A stretch of 49,274 nt of DNA from Candidatus Hydrogenedentota bacterium. Its GTDB lineage: Bacteria; Hydrogenedentota; Hydrogenedentia; Hydrogenedentales; JAEUWI01. This document shows, one piece after another, positions 38,139 through 45,053 of this stretch. Under the pieces are notes generated by a model. The model saw nothing but the letters and a program-made list of their open reading frames with translations, was not told where the DNA came from and did not search any database. Position 1 is the first letter of the stretch, and every line of letters starts with the position of its first letter. Made by a program: the position numbers and the translations under genes. The stretch covers positions 1 to 49,274 of the forward strand of contig JAEUWI010000018.1 in the NCBI GenBank assembly GCA_016791475.1, in the 5' to 3' direction.

Positions 38139-38774
38139 TCAAAGACGGGGATAGATGTTTTCCCTCGTCGGCGGGTCCCCTTCCCACATCTCAAATAGCG
38201 AGCGAACACGCTCGGAAAGTTCAGGTCCCGTGATGTGACCACCGACCTCACGGGCGAGTGGAAAGTCGACAACCGCGATGATACGCAATGCGCCATAAAG
38301 CTGGCTCTGGCCCCGACGGTTACGGCGACCGCCGGACAGAGGCGAAAGACAAGCCGATAGAAAAGCCTGGAACACTCGGGCAAAGATTGCTCGTGGCGCG
38401 GCCACAACGGCCCCCATCATCAACTCCAACGCATCGGCGCGGCGTACGGGACTGGGCTCTGTCGCGATGATACTCAGAAGACGTTCGACTTCGGCGGCGG
38501 TGTGCTCGGCTTGTCCAGACTCCACCAGTGCGCGAAGCGGCCACGCGGAGACGGAGACAATCCGGTTGGGCTCCTCATGGGAAAGCGCAACATTAAATGC
38601 CTCACGCAGCGCTGAATCTTTCTCGCTCTGGTCTTCCGTGCTTTTCGCCAGGTATGCGAGCGCTTGACACCGGTACCATGGCGTTTCTATTGTCCGCGCC
38701 AAATCCATTGCCGCGGCCCAGTCCCGCTTCCTAAGGACTTCAACTTCGCTTCGCTTCTGTACGTCGCTGTTCAC
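38139..38774 (-). CDS. Helical-repeat protein of unknown function
   Basis: About 211 residues from a GTG at 38774 with AAGGAG nine bases upstream; a start at 38837 would lie inside the leuCD terminator and is rejected. The protein is almost all helical, with repeats such as DLARTIETPWYRCQALAYLA and AWPLRALVESGQ, resembling HEAT- or TPR-type units. No signal peptide, membrane segment or catalytic motif is seen. It lies just after the leuD terminator with no space for a normal promoter, so expression may depend on read-through. Function unknown; I judge it real because the ribosome site and frame agree. Confidence 0.6.
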   Translation of the reverse strand: MNSDVQKRSEVEVLRKRDWAAAMDLARTIETPWYRCQALAYLAKSTEDQSEKDSALREAFNVALSHEEPNRIVSVSAWPLRALVESGQAEHTAAEVERLLSIIATEPSPVRRADALELMMGAVVAAPRAIFARVFQAFLSACLSPLSGGRRNRRGQSQLYGALRIIAVVDFPLAREVGGHITGPELSERVRSLFEMWEGDPPTRENIYPRL

Positions 38775-38804
38775 TCGGGCGTACTCCTTCGCGAACGAGG
38801 ATAC

Positions 38805-38848
38805 AAAAAAAGCGAGGCCCTGTGCCAAAGCCGACACAGGACCTCGCT
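38805..38848 (-). terminator. Rho-independent terminator of leuCD
   Basis: On the minus strand, a stem of two perfect blocks (AGCGAGG/CCTCGCT and CCTGTG/CACAGG, with one mismatch) and a 10-base loop is followed by seven U residues (38811-38805). It starts 19 bp after the leuD stop. Confidence 0.92.
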
Positions 38849-38866
38849 ACTGAATTACCAGAAAAA

Positions 38867-39463
38867 TTATGCGATTCCGCGCTTCTTCTCATAGGCGCTG
38901 ATGGCCTCATCGTGCAACAGCGTGAGGCCGATCTGGTCCCAGCCGTTGAGCAAGCGCTCCTTCAGAAAGGCGTTCAACTCAAAGCTCAGTTTCTCGCCAT
39001 TGGGCTTCGTGATGGTCTGGCTCGGCAGATCGATTTCGAGGCTGTAGCCATCCAGCGCGCGGACTTCGGGGAAGAGGCCATCGACCACGTCCGTCGGGAG
39101 CACGATGGGCAACATGCCATTGTTGAAGCAGTTGTTGTAGAAGATGTCGGCGAAGGACGGCGCGATGATACAACGGATGCCGTAGTTGTCGAGGGCCCAG
39201 GGTGCGTGTTCGCGCGAGGAGCCGCAGCCGAAGTTGTCCTTGGTCAGGAGGATGCTCGCCCCGGTGTAGCGCGGTGCGTTCATCTCAAACTCGGGATTCG
39301 GCGTGGTGCCGTCCGCAAGATAGCGCCAGTCGTAGAACAACATGCTCTCGTAGCCGCTGCGCTCGATGCGCTTGAGGAACTGCTTGGGAATGATCTGGTC
39401 GGTATCCACGTTGAGCGCTTCCAAGGGCGCCACGACACCTTTCAAGGTAACGAATTTCTGCAT
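38867..39463 (-). CDS. leuD: 3-isopropylmalate dehydratase small subunit
   Basis: 198 residues, family length. [17 protein letters not shown] and [20 protein letters not shown] are the LeuD signatures; the latter is the swivelling-domain active-site loop. [15 protein letters not shown] follows in the usual place. With LeuC it forms the isomerase that converts 2-isopropylmalate to 3-isopropylmalate in leucine synthesis. The ATG has GGAG eight bases upstream, 29 bp after leuC. A proper terminator ends the operon. Confidence 0.97.
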
Positions 39464-39492
39464 GATTCAAACTCCAGCGGACTGGTCCGCGC

Positions 39493-40899
39493 TCAGTTAA
39501 ACTTCCATTCGCGAATGTCGACAAAGTGCCCTTCAATCGCCGCCGCAACCGCCATCGCCGGACTGACCAGGTGGGTACGTCCGCCCTTGCCCTGTCGGCC
39601 TTCGAAATTCCGGTTGGACGTGGACGCGCAGCGATCGCCCGGCTGCAATATGTCGTCGTTCATCGCGAGGCACATCGAGCAGCCCGGCTCGCGCCACTCA
39701 AAGCCCGCTTCCTTGAAGATCTTGTCAAGCCCTTCCGCTTCGGCGGCCTTCTTCACTTCATAGGAGCCCGGCACCACGAGGGCCTGGTCGATGCTGGGGT
39801 TGACCTTATAACCCTTTACCACAGTCGCAGCGGCGCGGAGATCTTCCAAACGTCCGTTCGTGCAGGAGCCGAGGAACATCTTGTTGATTTTGATCTGGGT
39901 CAGGGGCACGCCCTCGCCGAGGTCCATGTATTTGAGCGCGCTCGCAGCGGCGAGGCGTTCATTGCCTTCCAGCTCCGAAAGCACCGGGGTCTTCGCGCTC
40001 ACGCCACTAACCATGCCGGGCGAGGTACCCCAGGTAACCTGCGGCTCGATATCCGCCGCGTTGAGCTCGACCACCACGTCGTAGGTGCAGCCTTCATCGG
40101 AAGCCCAGCTCCGCCACTCCGTCACCATGTCGTCCCAGTTGCGGTCCGTCGGGATGTAGGGACGGCCCTTGAGGTAAGCCACCGTCTTCTCGTCGGGCGA
40201 GATCAGGCCCGCGCGCGCGCCGGCCTCGATACTCATGTTGCACACCGTCATGCGGCCTTCCATGCTCAACGCGCGGATGGCGTCGCCGGTGTATTCGATG
40301 ACGTAGCCCGTGCCGCCCGCCGTGCCGATCTTGCCGATGACCGCGAGGGTGATGTCTTTCGCCGTCACACCCACCGGAAGCACTCCGCTGACACGCACTT
40401 CCATGGTCTTCGACTTCTTCTGCAACAAGGTCTGCGTGGCAAGGACATGCTCCACTTCTGAAGTGCCGATGCCGTGGGCCAACGCGCCGAAGGCGCCGTG
40501 GGTCGAGGTGTGGGAGTCGCCGCACACAATGGTCATGCCCGGCTGGGTGAGACCCTGCTCCGGCCCGATGACGTGGACGATGCCGTTGCGGCGATCATGC
40601 ATGTCGAAGCACACGATGCCCGTCTCCGCACAGTTCGCCTTTAAGGTTTCCACCTGCTGCTTGGAGAGCGGATCCGCAATCGGGATCGAGCGATCCGTTG
40701 TGGGGATGTTGTGGTCCATCGTGGCAAAAGTCAGCCCGGGCCGGCGCACGGTGCGCCCGTTCAAGCGCAGGCCCTCGAAGGCCTGGGGGGAAGTGACCTC
40801 GTGCACGTAGTGCCGGTCGATGTACAAGATGGTGTCCTGGCCTTCCGGCTCCGCCACCACGTGGGCATCCCAAATTTTTTCGTAGATATTCCTGGCCAT
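39493..40899 (-). CDS. leuC: 3-isopropylmalate dehydratase large subunit
   Basis: 468 residues. Aconitase-fold segments: [10 protein letters not shown], the [20 protein letters not shown] stretch, and the [4Fe-4S] ligand Cys in FLGSCTNGR and [31 protein letters not shown], near the C-terminus, is the substrate loop. It isomerises isopropylmalate together with LeuD and depends on a cluster made by the suf system. The 209-bp region upstream is mostly a 9-bp satellite; the ribosome site GAGG is ten bases before the ATG. leuA and leuB are not in the window. Confidence 0.98.
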
Positions 40900-40955
40900 T
40901 GTTTTCTTACCTCGCGTCGCTTGTGTTTTGTGGTCGCCCGCGGCGACTTAGTGAT

Positions 40956-41054
40956 TTATGGGTCTTATGGGTCTTATGGGTCTTATGGGTCTTATGGGTC
41001 TTATGGGTCTTATGGGTCTTATGGATCGTATGGATCGTATGGGTCGTATGGGTC
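40956..41054. repeat. 9-bp satellite array, 11 copies
   Basis: Eleven exact-length units: seven TTATGGGTC, then one TTATGGATC, one GTATGGATC and two GTATGGGTC at the tag side. The last two are the complement-strand form of the unit at 30230-30259. The array fills much of the space between tag and leuC, upstream of leuC. Its period is too short and it has no spacers, so it is not a CRISPR. Confidence 0.95.
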
Positions 41055-41108
41055 GTCCCGTTTGTCCCATAGGACCCATTTTTCACTGAAGCACGCGCTC
41101 CCTGGTGG

Positions 41109-41687
41109 CTAGCGCTTTGGTCCGGTCAATTCTCGATAACGAAAGCAATCCTTCGTGTGGTCATTTACCATCCCCACCGCCTGCATGAAGGCGTAGCAGA
41201 TCGTCGTGCCAATGAAGCGAAAACCGCGTCGCTTCAGGTCCTTGCTCATGGCATCGGACACCGGCGAACTCGCGGGCAGGTCCTTCAGGGAATTCCACTG
41301 GTTCACAATGGGCTTACCCTGCACAAATTGCCAGATGTACTTGTCAAAGCTGCCAAATTCCTTCTGGACTTTCAGGAATGCCCGGGCGTTGGTCACCGTG
41401 GAGGAAATTTTCAACTTGTTCCGCACGATTTCCGCGTTGCCGCGCAGCACCTGCTCCTCCTTCTCCGTAAACTTCGCAATCTTCGCCACGTCCCAGTCGG
41501 CAAAAGCCTTTCGATAGCCCTCCCGTTTCTTCAGGATCGTGCTCCAGCTCAAACCCGCCTGCGCGCCTTCCAGCGTGAGAAATTCAAACAGTACCCGGTC
41601 GTCGTGCACCGGAACGCCCCACTCCGTGTCGTGGTAGAGAACGTCCAGCTCGCCCTTGGCCCATCCGCAGCGTGTTTTCTCAGCCAT
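41109..41687 (-). CDS. tag: DNA-3-methyladenine glycosylase I
   Basis: 192 residues. The zinc-snap ligands of Tag are present: the N-terminal Cys of RCGWAKG, the His of LYHDTEWGVPVHDD, and the C-terminal NDHTKDCFR (His and Cys). The helical core includes FEFLTLEGAQAGLSWSTIL, where the Glu-Gly-Ala-Gln stretch lines the base pocket. It removes 3-methyladenine from alkylated DNA. It starts 15 bp after the GGDEF-RHH gene on the same strand with a good AAGGAAGAG site, so both genes form one operon. Confidence 0.96.
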   Translation of the reverse strand: MAEKTRCGWAKGELDVLYHDTEWGVPVHDDRVLFEFLTLEGAQAGLSWSTILKKREGYRKAFADWDVAKIAKFTEKEEQVLRGNAEIVRNKLKISSTVTNARAFLKVQKEFGSFDKYIWQFVQGKPIVNQWNSLKDLPASSPVSDAMSKDLKRRGFRFIGTTICYAFMQAVGMVNDHTKDCFRYRELTGPKR

Positions 41688-41701
41688 CGTCTCTTCCTTG
41701 T

Positions 41702-42352
41702 CTATGCGTTATATTTCCGCAGCAAATCGTTCAGCGCTTCGCGCAGCAACAGCGCCTCGCCGATCTTCTCCCGCTCCGCCAGCCGACGCAGGCCGAGCAA
41801 CTGGCCCTGCATGTAATGGCTCGTCTTCGTCACCATCTTCTCCTCCCGCGCCAGACAGATCCGATCGCGACCGCCCACTTTTGCGCGGTAGAGCGCCTCG
41901 TTGGCCTTGTGCACCACGTCCTGCGCCTTCACGCCATCATCCGAATAGGCCGCCAGGCCCATACTGATGCTCACCGGCACCACCTGACCCGAGGCAAGGG
42001 TCCTCTCGCCCGCATAGCCACTGCGAAAGGCTTCCATGCGCAAAAAGGCCTGCTCCTTCTCCACCCCAGGCAGCATCACCGCCAGCGCGTCGCCGCCAAA
42101 ACGATAAAGTGCCTCTTCGCCCGCCAGACAAGCCGTGAGCGCCGCCACCAGATCACAGAGTACACCATCGCCGGTTTCCCGGCCATGGACCTCGTTGATG
42201 GCGCCAAAGAGATCAATATCCACCACGGCCAGCGAAATCACGGCGGGCTGTTTTGATTTTCTGCCGATCCGCGCCGCGAAATCCGCCTCGAAGACGGAGC
42301 GCCCCGGCAGGCCGGTAAGGGCATCGCGGGCGGCGGCGGCATTTGAAGGCAT
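41702..42352 (-). CDS. Degenerate GGDEF domain fused to ribbon-helix-helix DNA-binding domain
   Basis: 216 residues. Residues 8-168 are a GGDEF domain: RDALTGLPGRSVFEADF, VVDIDLFGAINEVHGRETGD and SISMGLAAY. The active loop reads GGDAL (86-90) instead of GGDEF, so the catalytic acid is replaced by Ala, and there is no RxxD inhibitory site upstream. Cyclase activity is therefore unlikely. Residues 172-214 (KTSHYMQGQLLGLRRLAERE, then a turn and LLREALNDLLRKY) match a ribbon-helix-helix DNA-binding domain. I infer a nucleotide-responsive transcription factor. The operator-like array at 42364-42413 lies 12 bp before the start, and tag follows in the same operon. The ribosome site AGGAG is six bases from the ATG. 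Confidence 0.85.
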   Translation of the reverse strand: MPSNAAAARDALTGLPGRSVFEADFAARIGRKSKQPAVISLAVVDIDLFGAINEVHGRETGDGVLCDLVAALTACLAGEEALYRFGGDALAVMLPGVEKEQAFLRMEAFRSGYAGERTLASGQVVPVSISMGLAAYSDDGVKAQDVVHKANEALYRAKVGGRDRICLAREEKMVTKTSHYMQGQLLGLRRLAEREKIGEALLLREALNDLLRKYNA

Positions 42353-42363
42353 CGGAAGCTCCT

Positions 42364-42413
42364 ATACATCGATCTCAATACATAGGATTTCCTATGTATG
42401 TTATCATATGTAT
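42364..42413. promoter_or_regulatory. Nested symmetric operator: four ATACAT/ATGTAT boxes
   Basis: Boxes start at 42364 and 42378 (ATACAT) and at 42394 and 42408 (ATGTAT), 14, 16 and 14 bp apart, all symmetric about 42388.5. The inner pair is extended to a perfect 9-bp inverted repeat, ATACATAGG/CCTATGTAT, with a 4-bp spacer. It sits directly upstream of the GGDEF-RHH gene and suits a dimer-of-dimers repressor. Confidence 0.7.
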
Positions 42414-42456
42414 ACCACGAACCCAGTCCAGATGCAAGCGCAAAATGGAAAAGGCC

Positions 42457-42485
42457 GTGAAACAGTGCTTAAGGGCACGTTTCAC
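42457..42485 (-). terminator. Terminator of the SnoaL-like gene
   Basis: GTGAAAC-A-GTGC pairs with GCAC-GTTTCAC (one bulged A, 6-base loop). On the minus strand it is followed by CCTTTTCCATTTTG, a T-rich tail. It lies about 28 bp after the stop at 42514. Confidence 0.7.
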
Positions 42486-42513
42486 AGCCTCAAAATACGA
42501 ATACTACTAGTAA

Positions 42514-42984
42514 TCAATCCGTGCCCGTACGGGCCAGCCGATCCAGCTTCAAACAGCGCGCGAGCGTCAACATGTCGGAAAGCTGCCAGATTTCGACGAT
42601 CTTTCCATCCTGGACACGACAGAAGGCCACGCCGCTGACCGAGAACTCCTCCGACGGCAAGTCGAACAGCTCGCGCAGGCGACGCGCCTCGCTGTTTCCG
42701 CAATCCCCCCCGCGTACCGTCCACCGCGCCGCCACGCGTTCGCCCTCTTCAATGATCTCATCCACCTGAAACACCATATCCGGAAAGGTGGACTTATAGA
42801 TCAGACTCTGGTCTCGAAGTGACGCGCAATCGAGTCGCTTTGCGAGTCCATAGGCATTTTCCCCCGCGTCAGGCCCGGCGGCCAGACAATCCGGCGCGTA
42901 CAACTCCCGGAATACCTCTTCCCCCTGACCAACCAGATACTCTTCTATTGCCCGTTGAATGACCTGCTTGTTTTGACCGCGCAT
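42514..42984 (-). CDS. SnoaL-like polyketide cyclase/ester cyclase family protein
   Basis: 156 residues from the ATG at 42984, with GGGAGG seven bases upstream; the upstream ATG at 42999 lies next to that ribosome site. The NTF2-like alpha+beta cone is recognisable: an N-terminal helix pair (VIQRAIEEYLVGQGEEVFRE), FPDMVFQVDEIIEEGERVAA and the strand end SGVAFCRVQDGKIVEIWQL. SnoaL-like proteins include small-molecule cyclases, but most bacterial members are uncharacterised; no specific substrate can be named. It has its own promoter (43084-43112) and terminator, so it is a single-gene unit. Confidence 0.82.
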   Translation of the reverse strand: MRGQNKQVIQRAIEEYLVGQGEEVFRELYAPDCLAAGPDAGENAYGLAKRLDCASLRDQSLIYKSTFPDMVFQVDEIIEEGERVAARWTVRGGDCGNSEARRLRELFDLPSEEFSVSGVAFCRVQDGKIVEIWQLSDMLTLARCLKLDRLARTGTD

Positions 42985-43083
42985 GATGGTGCCTCCCATT
43001 TGGTTGCATGCGTCTCCCCGGATGCGCCCACCAGGCCAAACTGCCGCCCGTAACTTCCCTCACGCAATCCGTGCTCTTCCAAA

Positions 43084-43112
43084 AGTATACTTCTTTTGAC
43101 TTCCGGGCACAA
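43084..43112 (-). promoter_or_regulatory. Probable promoter of the SnoaL-like gene
   Basis: Minus strand TTGTGC (43112-43107), 17 bp, TATACT (43089-43084). The -10 lies within the palindrome AAGTATACTT, flanked by CAAAAG and CTTTTG, so a regulator may bind here. The leader would be about 90 bases. Confidence 0.55.
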
Positions 43113-43132
43113 CCGGGAAAAAGACGAAGCTG

Positions 43133-44071
43133 TCAACCCTTCGCGGTCTTCATCCGGCTCCGGTAGTAATCCAGAATCACGGCCAGTACGATCACCACGC
43201 CCGTCACCATGCGCTTGACGGGATCTTCCACTGCAATCTGGGTCAGTCCGCTCTCAAGCACCGCGATGATCGCCACGCCGAAGAAACTGCACACCGCCGA
43301 GCCGCGGCCTCCGAGGAGGCTCGTTCCGCCGATCACCGCGGCGGCGATCGCCTGGAGCTCATAACCCGTGCCCATGTTGGGATCCGCGCTGGAGAGGCGT
43401 GCACACAGGATTACCGAAGCCAACGCCGCCAGGAAGCCGCTCGCCCCAAACACGAGGACCTTCATCTTGTTTGTGTTCAATCCCGACAGGCGCGCCACCT
43501 CTTCATTCGCGCCGAGGGCGAACAGGCCGCGTCCCCACACCGTATGGGAGAGAAAGACCTGGGCGCCAACCAGCACGCCGAGCGCCATGAAGAGCATGAA
43601 GGAAAGCCCAAAGACATTGAAATCGAGCAGACCGTCGACCTGCTGTCCGATATAGAGCGTCTGCTGGTCGGTGAGCTGATAGGCCGCGCCCCGCGCCAGC
43701 TCCATCATGCCCAGGGTCACGATGAACGACGGCAGGCGCCAGCGTACCGACACCAATCCATTGACAAGGCCGCAGGCCGTGCCGGCCGCGAGTGTGAGGG
43801 GCACGGCCACGAAGAGCGGAAGCCCCCAGTTCACCAGCGCCACCCCCAGCACCGCGCCAGACAGCGCGAGCACGGCGCCGACCGACAAATCGATGCCGCC
43901 GATGATCAAGACAAAGGTCATGCCGATGGCGATGAGCAGGGCCTCGGGGATCTGATTCGCCAGCACGATGAAATTGCCTGACGAAAGGAAATGCTCCGAC
44001 TTCACGCCAAAAATGGCGATCAGCACACCCAGCACCGCCGCCAGGCCCAGATAGTTCAGGAAATGTCGCAA
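43133..44071 (-). CDS. Ribose-type ABC transporter permease
   Basis: 312 residues with about eight to ten membrane segments. The family block LIIGGIDLSVGAVLALSG and the later FALGANEEVARLSGLNTNKMK, the coupling loop that contacts the ATPase, are clear, as is GGTSLLGGRGS. This is the RbsC/BPD_transp_2 class of sugar-uptake permeases. It follows the binding-protein gene by 13 bp. No RbsA-type ATPase lies in the operon or window, so the partner must be encoded elsewhere or this is a remnant. Substrate is likely a pentose, hexose or autoinducer-type sugar. Confidence 0.9.
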   Translation of the reverse strand: MRHFLNYLGLAAVLGVLIAIFGVKSEHFLSSGNFIVLANQIPEALLIAIGMTFVLIIGGIDLSVGAVLALSGAVLGVALVNWGLPLFVAVPLTLAAGTACGLVNGLVSVRWRLPSFIVTLGMMELARGAAYQLTDQQTLYIGQQVDGLLDFNVFGLSFMLFMALGVLVGAQVFLSHTVWGRGLFALGANEEVARLSGLNTNKMKVLVFGASGFLAALASVILCARLSSADPNMGTGYELQAIAAAVIGGTSLLGGRGSAVCSFFGVAIIAVLESGLTQIAVEDPVKRMVTGVVIVLAVILDYYRSRMKTAKG

Positions 44072-44084
44072 GGATAGCCGCCCC

Positions 44085-45053
44085 TCAAGGAACCGTGGTA
44101 ATCAGATCAACGGGCGTCTCGCGATCAGCCGGCGCCGCTTTGGTCGCAATCATCTCCAGGGCATACTCGATACCAAAGACGGCAAGTTTGTCCCCGTGTT
44201 GATCGGCGGTCGCAAGCAACGCACCTTCCTTGATGAGGTCCTGCGCCGCGGAAATGTTGTCAAAGCCCACCACCTTGACGGCCTCCAGCTTGCCCGCCGA
44301 GCGCAGCGCGGACACGGCGCCCAGCGCCATGCTGTCGTTTGCACAGAGGATCGCCTTGAGATCCGGATGCTCCGTCACCATCGCCGAGACCACTTGATTC
44401 GCCTGGGCCATCTCCCAGTTCGCCGTCTGGCTGGTGGCGATGACCATGCCCGCCGCATTCATGGCGTCTTCAAAACCGAGTTTCCGCTGGATCGCATTGA
44501 ACGCCGACGGCACGCCCTCGATGATGGCCACTTTGTCACCCGACAGCAGCTTGCCCGCAAGATACTCGCCGACTTTTTTCGCACCCGCGCGGTTGTCCGG
44601 CCCGACGAACGGCACTGCCATGCCCTTGTCTTTCAGCACATCCGCGTCGAGTTTGTTGTCAATGTTTACGACCACAATCCCAGCATCCTGGGCCCGCTTG
44701 CACGCCGCCACCAGCGCCTTGGAATCCGCCGGGGCCACCACGATGGCATCCACACCCCGCGCCACCATCTGTTCCACCAGTTGCACCTGGCGGTTCACGT
44801 CGAGCTCGTCTTTGATGCCCTCGGTGATCAGATCATACTTCGCGGCATTCTCCGTCTGGTGGGCCTTGGCGCCGTCTTCCATGGTCTTGAAGAACTCGTT
44901 CGCCAGCGACTTCATCACCAGTGCGATAACGGGCTTGTCAGGGGCGGCACCCCCCCCGGGCGCCGCCGCTTCCGGCGTACCTTCACCACTGCCACCACAC
45001 CCGGCTACAAAAAACGCCGACAAAATCAGCGCAAGACTCAAATAGCTCTTCAT
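44085..45053 (-). CDS. Sugar-binding lipoprotein of ribose-type ABC transporter
   Basis: 322 residues. A lipoprotein signal ends in VAGC (Cys19), followed by a Gly/Ser/Pro-rich linker. The two-domain periplasmic-binding fold (Peripla_BP_4) shows PVIALVMKSLANEFFKTMEDGA, VDAIVVAPADSKALVAAC, AGIVVVNIDNKLD and LKAILCANDSMALGAVSAL. It delivers a sugar to the adjacent permease from a membrane-tethered position. A strong ribosome site AAGGAG precedes the ATG. Which sugar it binds cannot be told from these motifs. Confidence 0.93.
   Translation of the reverse strand: MKSYLSLALILSAFFVAGCGGSGEGTPEAAAPGGGAAPDKPVIALVMKSLANEFFKTMEDGAKAHQTENAAKYDLITEGIKDELDVNRQVQLVEQMVARGVDAIVVAPADSKALVAACKRAQDAGIVVVNIDNKLDADVLKDKGMAVPFVGPDNRAGAKKVGEYLAGKLLSGDKVAIIEGVPSAFNAIQRKLGFEDAMNAAGMVIATSQTANWEMAQANQVVSAMVTEHPDLKAILCANDSMALGAVSALRSAGKLEAVKVVGFDNISAAQDLIKEGALLATADQHGDKLAVFGIEYALEMIATKAAPADRETPVDLITTVP

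Follow-up and report, generated by a model that had tools for sequence, protein, structure and literature searches.

The 49,274-nucleotide stretch of Candidatus Hydrogenedentota DNA analysed here (contig JAEUWI010000018.1; hereafter the window) encodes a protein in which a degenerate GGDEF domain is joined to a C-terminal ribbon-helix-helix (RHH) domain. Its gene heads a unit that runs operator, fusion gene, tag, leuC and leuD, with a terminator-like hairpin at both ends (Table 1). On balance, we favour the reading that this protein is a one-component autorepressor of the leuCD operon whose degenerate GGDEF domain senses a guanine nucleotide, more probably GTP or (p)ppGpp than c-di-GMP. The C-terminal RHH would dimerise and bind a TACATA-N8-TATGTA operator overlapping or adjoining the sigma-70 promoter of the fusion gene's operon, and when bound would repress its own gene, leuCD and, in some species, tag as well. 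The GGDEF domain at the N terminus would no longer make c-di-GMP but would keep its guanine-nucleotide pocket, where GTP or (p)ppGpp would alter the dimer and hence DNA binding, with the result that leucine synthesis would be matched to the guanine-nucleotide or starvation state. The fusion, the conserved palindrome, the operon synteny and the conservation of the pocket are visible at the level of sequence, which also supports the DNA target and the operon well, while DNA binding, repression, the identity of the ligand and the sign of the response are what we infer. More tentatively, this may be the first GGDEF domain found as the input module of a repressor that binds DNA, a switch leading directly from GTP or (p)ppGpp to transcription and controlling leucine biosynthesis.

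Table 1. Features of the GGDEF-RHH locus (window coordinates).
Feature	Position	Strand	Remarks
Terminator-like hairpin of upstream gene	42451..42491	-	z -6.5, T-rich tail
Promoter-like site TGGACT-16-TATGAT adjoining operator	42403..42430	-	weak consensus match, 9/12
Operator palindrome TACATAGGATTTCCTATGTA, TACATA-N8-TATGTA	42379..42398	.	predicted; sole genome copy
GGDEF-RHH fusion gene	41702..42352	-	216 aa; ATG start, AGGAG upstream
GGDEF domain, residues 7-164	41861..42334	-	Pfam PF00990, E 7e-29; Foldseek top hit PleD, TMq 0.70
Degenerate signature GGDAL, residues 86-90	42083..42097	-	fourth residue Ala in 23/23 Hydrogenedentota members
RHH DNA-binding domain, residues 169-216	41705..41848	-	Pfam profiles, AlphaFold, Foldseek
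tag, DNA-3-methyladenine glycosylase I	41109..41687	-	starts 14 bp past fusion gene
leuC, 3-isopropylmalate dehydratase large subunit	39493..40899	-	TIGR00170, 760 bits, above cut-off; synteny
leuD, 3-isopropylmalate dehydratase small subunit	38867..39463	-	TIGR00171, 272 bits, above cut-off
Terminator-like hairpin and T tract past leuD	38811..38848	-	17 pairs

The fusion protein and its distribution

An earlier note on this DNA had described the open reading frame as a GGDEF domain with a GGDAL loop and no RxxD inhibitory site, joined to a C-terminal RHH segment, and our analysis confirms this architecture. The inhibitory (I-site) positions are occupied by A77 and E80, the AlphaFold model is confident over the GGDEF part, and the protein matched no Pfam models besides those of the GGDEF and RHH types. 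Weak matches to RHH_3 (PF12651) and Antitox_RHH cover residues 188-215; the RHH_3 score of 17.4 bits for the whole protein rises to 21.0 for the isolated tail, just missing the curated cut-off of 21.6. RHH_3 is matched by all 28 aligned family members (best E 7e-7), and the curated cut-offs are passed by tails of relatives, Fervidicella among them (RHH_3 33.0 vs 21.6; RHH_1 22.3 vs 20.5). Structure prediction, which the earlier note had proposed as a check, bore out the RHH fold in part, and the outcome that the note had named as refuting, a confident model lacking this fold, did not arise. Two helices (182-194 and 199-215) form a helix-turn-helix after the GGDEF domain, while the segment expected to supply the DNA-contacting strand (about 173-180) is unstructured in the AlphaFold monomer (pLDDT <50 at 173-178), which would fit a ribbon that needs the dimer to form. 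In a Foldseek search with the isolated tail, the hits ranked at or near the top included CdbA, VapB, CopG, ORF56, MazE-mt10 and Arc, each of them a weak match with an E value of at least 1. As for a type II antitoxin, no small toxin gene lies adjacent, the neighbours being tag, leuC and leuD. A mobile-element origin was considered and set aside, the RHH tail having no match in plasmid or phage collections.

Full-length relatives were gathered by a scan of the whole collection and by genome searches. The RHH-tail profile matches 26 of the 68 Hydrogenedentota genomes, at a single place in each except G048 (two contigs), and every match on a sufficiently long contig belongs to a GGDEF fusion; a stand-alone RHH of the same type was not found in these 68 genomes. 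Within the class of Fervidicella, 11 of 391 sampled genomes gave matches, with the same fusion in Fervidicella and eight others; one member from a Defluviitaleaceae metagenome-assembled genome (MAG; L024:5001-6149) carries an extra C-terminal response-regulator receiver domain. Three MAG records labelled Chitinophagaceae, Nitrospiraceae and Rhodothermaeota (L009, L015 and L021) are Hydrogenedentota by sequence, being identical or nearly identical to genomes G001, G054 and G032, and the family's apparent presence in those groups was accordingly rejected. Comparison of the window gene with the relative L035 gave dN 0.03 and dS 0.80 for the RHH part, and dN 0.22 and dS 1.23 for the whole gene. 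The low dN relative to dS indicates purifying selection on both domains, strongest on the RHH, and mean column identity is 87% in the RHH vs 56% in the GGDEF domain. Since the fusion occurs in more than a third of the Hydrogenedentota genomes searched and in scattered Clostridia, and is under purifying selection, chance or an assembly error, the latter named in the earlier note as a refuting outcome, can be ruled out.

A predicted operator in the fusion gene's promoter

The operon promoter contains a palindrome with the core ACATAGGA-AA-TCCTATGT inside TACATA-N8-TATGTA. With at most two mismatches it is present in 22 of 28 family promoters (exactly in 13), against a mean of 1.07 and a maximum of 6 for shuffled sequences. 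The exact palindrome occurs once in each of five genomes, the window's own and those of four closely related bacteria bearing the gene (G000, G001, G002, G003 and G005), always at the fusion gene; single-mismatch copies occur at a few scattered extra places, overall not above a reversed-pattern control. A search for a wide regulon gave none, no second exact copy being present in any of these five genomes. The conserved half TTGACATATGTAT is present once in Fervidicella (2.9 Mb) and once in a Defluviitaleaceae genome, in both cases at the gene. More distant genomes of the order also have a few exact palindromes away from the gene, and several of these fall within mechanically called open reading frames. 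A divergent clostridial member (L166) has a very long perfect palindrome, GATGTATATATATGTTAACATATATATACATC, upstream.

Judged by consensus matches only, a promoter-like site overlaps or adjoins the palindrome in most members. Many have a TTGACA-like hexamer within the palindrome and a -10-like hexamer 17-18 bp further on, while in the window's clade the palindrome follows a -10-like TATACA or TATGAT. This arrangement looks like that of a repressor site. Because a conserved operator lies in the fusion gene's own promoter, DNA binding is the likely output of the protein, and the position of that operator suggests repression, although the site could serve activation instead.

The leuCD operon

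Because a terminator-like hairpin ends the gene upstream, the fusion gene's promoter appears to be isolated from it, and between the two flanking hairpins there is only one weak terminator-like site, within tag. All 25 testable fusion-bearing Hydrogenedentota genomes, which span several families, have leuC downstream of the fusion gene and on its strand; the 26th (G040), whose contig ends just past the gene, was left out of this count. The fusion gene and leuC are separated by as little as a few tens of bases or as much as about 3 kb, leuD follows leuC wherever the contig reaches, and tag intervenes in six of the loci examined. In genomes without the fusion, among those whose upstream stretch was read, the palindrome was not found before leuC. 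Neither the leuCD operon nor the uniqueness of the operator in each genome featured in the earlier note.

Several other features of the neighbourhood were recorded. One genome without the fusion (G017, L140) has a tag-like open reading frame directly before leuC, suggesting that the tag-leuC pair is independent of the fusion. The gap between tag and leuC in the window (40956-41054) holds 11 tandem copies of the 9-bp repeat TTATGGGTC. Upstream (43133-45053) lie a sugar ABC transporter permease and binding protein, in a synteny kept in G001 and G002. RNA control of the leu genes was considered and rejected, no Rfam match occurring within 38500-43200.

None of the clostridial loci with sequence long enough to tell has leuC next to the fusion gene. 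The leucine link thus belongs to a single phylum, and what is conserved throughout may be no more than autoregulation; by eye, a dapB-like gene was seen near the fusion gene in three of the clostridial loci (L172, L174 and L176). The strongest rival to our reading starts here. It holds that the protein is an autogenous repressor resembling PutA in which a ligand plays no part: the RHH would set only the protein's own level, the GGDEF domain would have a separate function (buffering of nucleotides, binding of a partner or residual enzyme activity), and leuCD would merely be carried along. Both the lack of leuC beside the clostridial copies and an operator unique to the gene's own promoter in both phyla fit this account. 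We nonetheless consider it unlikely, as chance carriage sits poorly with an unbroken leuC linkage across several families, and most members have no visible partner domain.

The GGDEF active site and nucleotide pocket

None of the 23 Hydrogenedentota members has the active diguanylate cyclase signature GG[DE]EF with its catalytic Glu, all reading GGDA; the Glu is present in all 12 aligned control GGDEF proteins (7 from the window's genome). The FK lysine has become Gly or Ala in the same 23, while nearly all the controls keep both residues, and the RxxD I-site is absent from all 36 members aligned. Clostridial members have Glu at the fourth motif place in 9 of 13 cases, several retaining the DEF motif, with the first glycine and the lysine mostly changed. 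In PleD, residues D327, N335, D344, E370, K442 and R446 contact metal, guanine and phosphates (PMC7288161). Their equivalents (D45, N53, D62, D88, K158 and R162 in the window protein) are 91-100% conserved among the 23 Hydrogenedentota members, far higher than the 56% averaged over the domain (permutation p 1e-4). As far as the alignment tells, the pattern is that of a domain that has kept its nucleotide and lost its chemistry and product-inhibition site. With Ala at the fourth place, the FK lysine changed, RxxD gone and the pocket kept, the Hydrogenedentota domain has probably lost catalysis, although the conserved pocket could serve catalysis with an altered chemistry.

Retention of the GTP-site residues and loss of the I-site favour GTP-like ligands over c-di-GMP, and we regard GTP or (p)ppGpp as the more likely effector. 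Structures of PleD have been solved with c-di-GMP plus ppGpp or pppGpp (9g85, 9g86), which, together with the suitability of (p)ppGpp for an amino-acid operon, makes it a reasonable second candidate. The earlier note's interpretation is supported in part: the GGDEF active site is degenerate and, given the operator, DNA binding is the likely output. Its hypothesis that GTP or c-di-GMP could switch that binding is refined here in favour of a GTP-like ligand.

A receptor for c-di-GMP, bound either by the GGDEF domain or by the RHH as in CdbA, with DNA binding switched accordingly, strikes us as improbable. Reception of c-di-GMP by degenerate GGDEF domains is well known (PMC12564702), CdbA is an RHH protein that binds this nucleotide (PMC7156744), and the window's genome encodes a dozen other GGDEF proteins, those aligned mostly having canonical motifs; but the I-site is missing family-wide, and PdeB, which has also lost its I-site, binds GTP and not c-di-GMP (PMC9061725). 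An active or altered cyclase, with the RHH giving autoregulation or DNA tethering, would explain the intact metal and GTP residues and the DEF kept in several clostridial members, but we find it highly doubtful given the uniform loss of the fourth-place Glu and the FK lysine in Hydrogenedentota, both of which the controls nearly all keep. Least credible is a dead, ligand-free GGDEF dimerisation scaffold, which would suit the fast divergence of this domain relative to the RHH but not the selective conservation of its nucleotide-contacting side chains.

Comparison with known systems

Few bacterial signalling domains are as common as GGDEF domains, which have been described as enzymes, as c-di-GMP receptors and as GTP-sensing partners of EAL domains. 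If the guanine-nucleotide-responsive autorepressor proposed here is real, a GGDEF domain directly controlling a DNA-binding domain would let a single protein carry a guanine-nucleotide signal to a promoter. The system is also unusually testable, having one operator per genome, one operon and one small soluble protein. Of the 15 papers mentioning both terms among 5.39 million open ones, none appears to report a GGDEF-RHH fusion, and within that literature the combination of this fusion, a unique operator and a leuCD operon appears undescribed, its parts being already known.

Ligand-controlled RHH repressors of the NikR and MetJ type, in which an RHH dimer sits on a palindrome at its own or a pathway promoter under an allosteric effector, offer the same operator logic; here a GGDEF domain would be the sensor, and the RHH lies at the C terminus. 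PutA, an autogenous repressor, likewise fuses an RHH to another functional domain, but its RHH is N-terminal, and it is an enzyme with an unrelated substrate. The proposed logic also resembles that of CodY, a global regulator that controls branched-chain amino acid synthesis in response to guanine nucleotides. CodY, however, consists of a GAF domain and a winged helix-turn-helix, neither of which is among the Pfam matches of the window protein, and the system here comprises one operon. CdbA of Myxococcus xanthus resembles the present family, as read here, in linking an RHH to a guanine second messenger, but lacks a GGDEF domain, uses its RHH to bind c-di-GMP and occupies many genomic sites (PMC7156744), compared with one predicted site per genome here. 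The closest parallels for the sensor are CC3396, whose inactive GGDEF domain senses GTP without catalysis (PMC7288161), and PdeB, whose GTP-binding GGDEF domain, like those of the present family, has no I-site (PMC9061725). Both are cyclase-inactive GGDEF domains with a GTP pocket, as we propose for the GGDEF-RHH proteins, but their output is an EAL phosphodiesterase rather than DNA.
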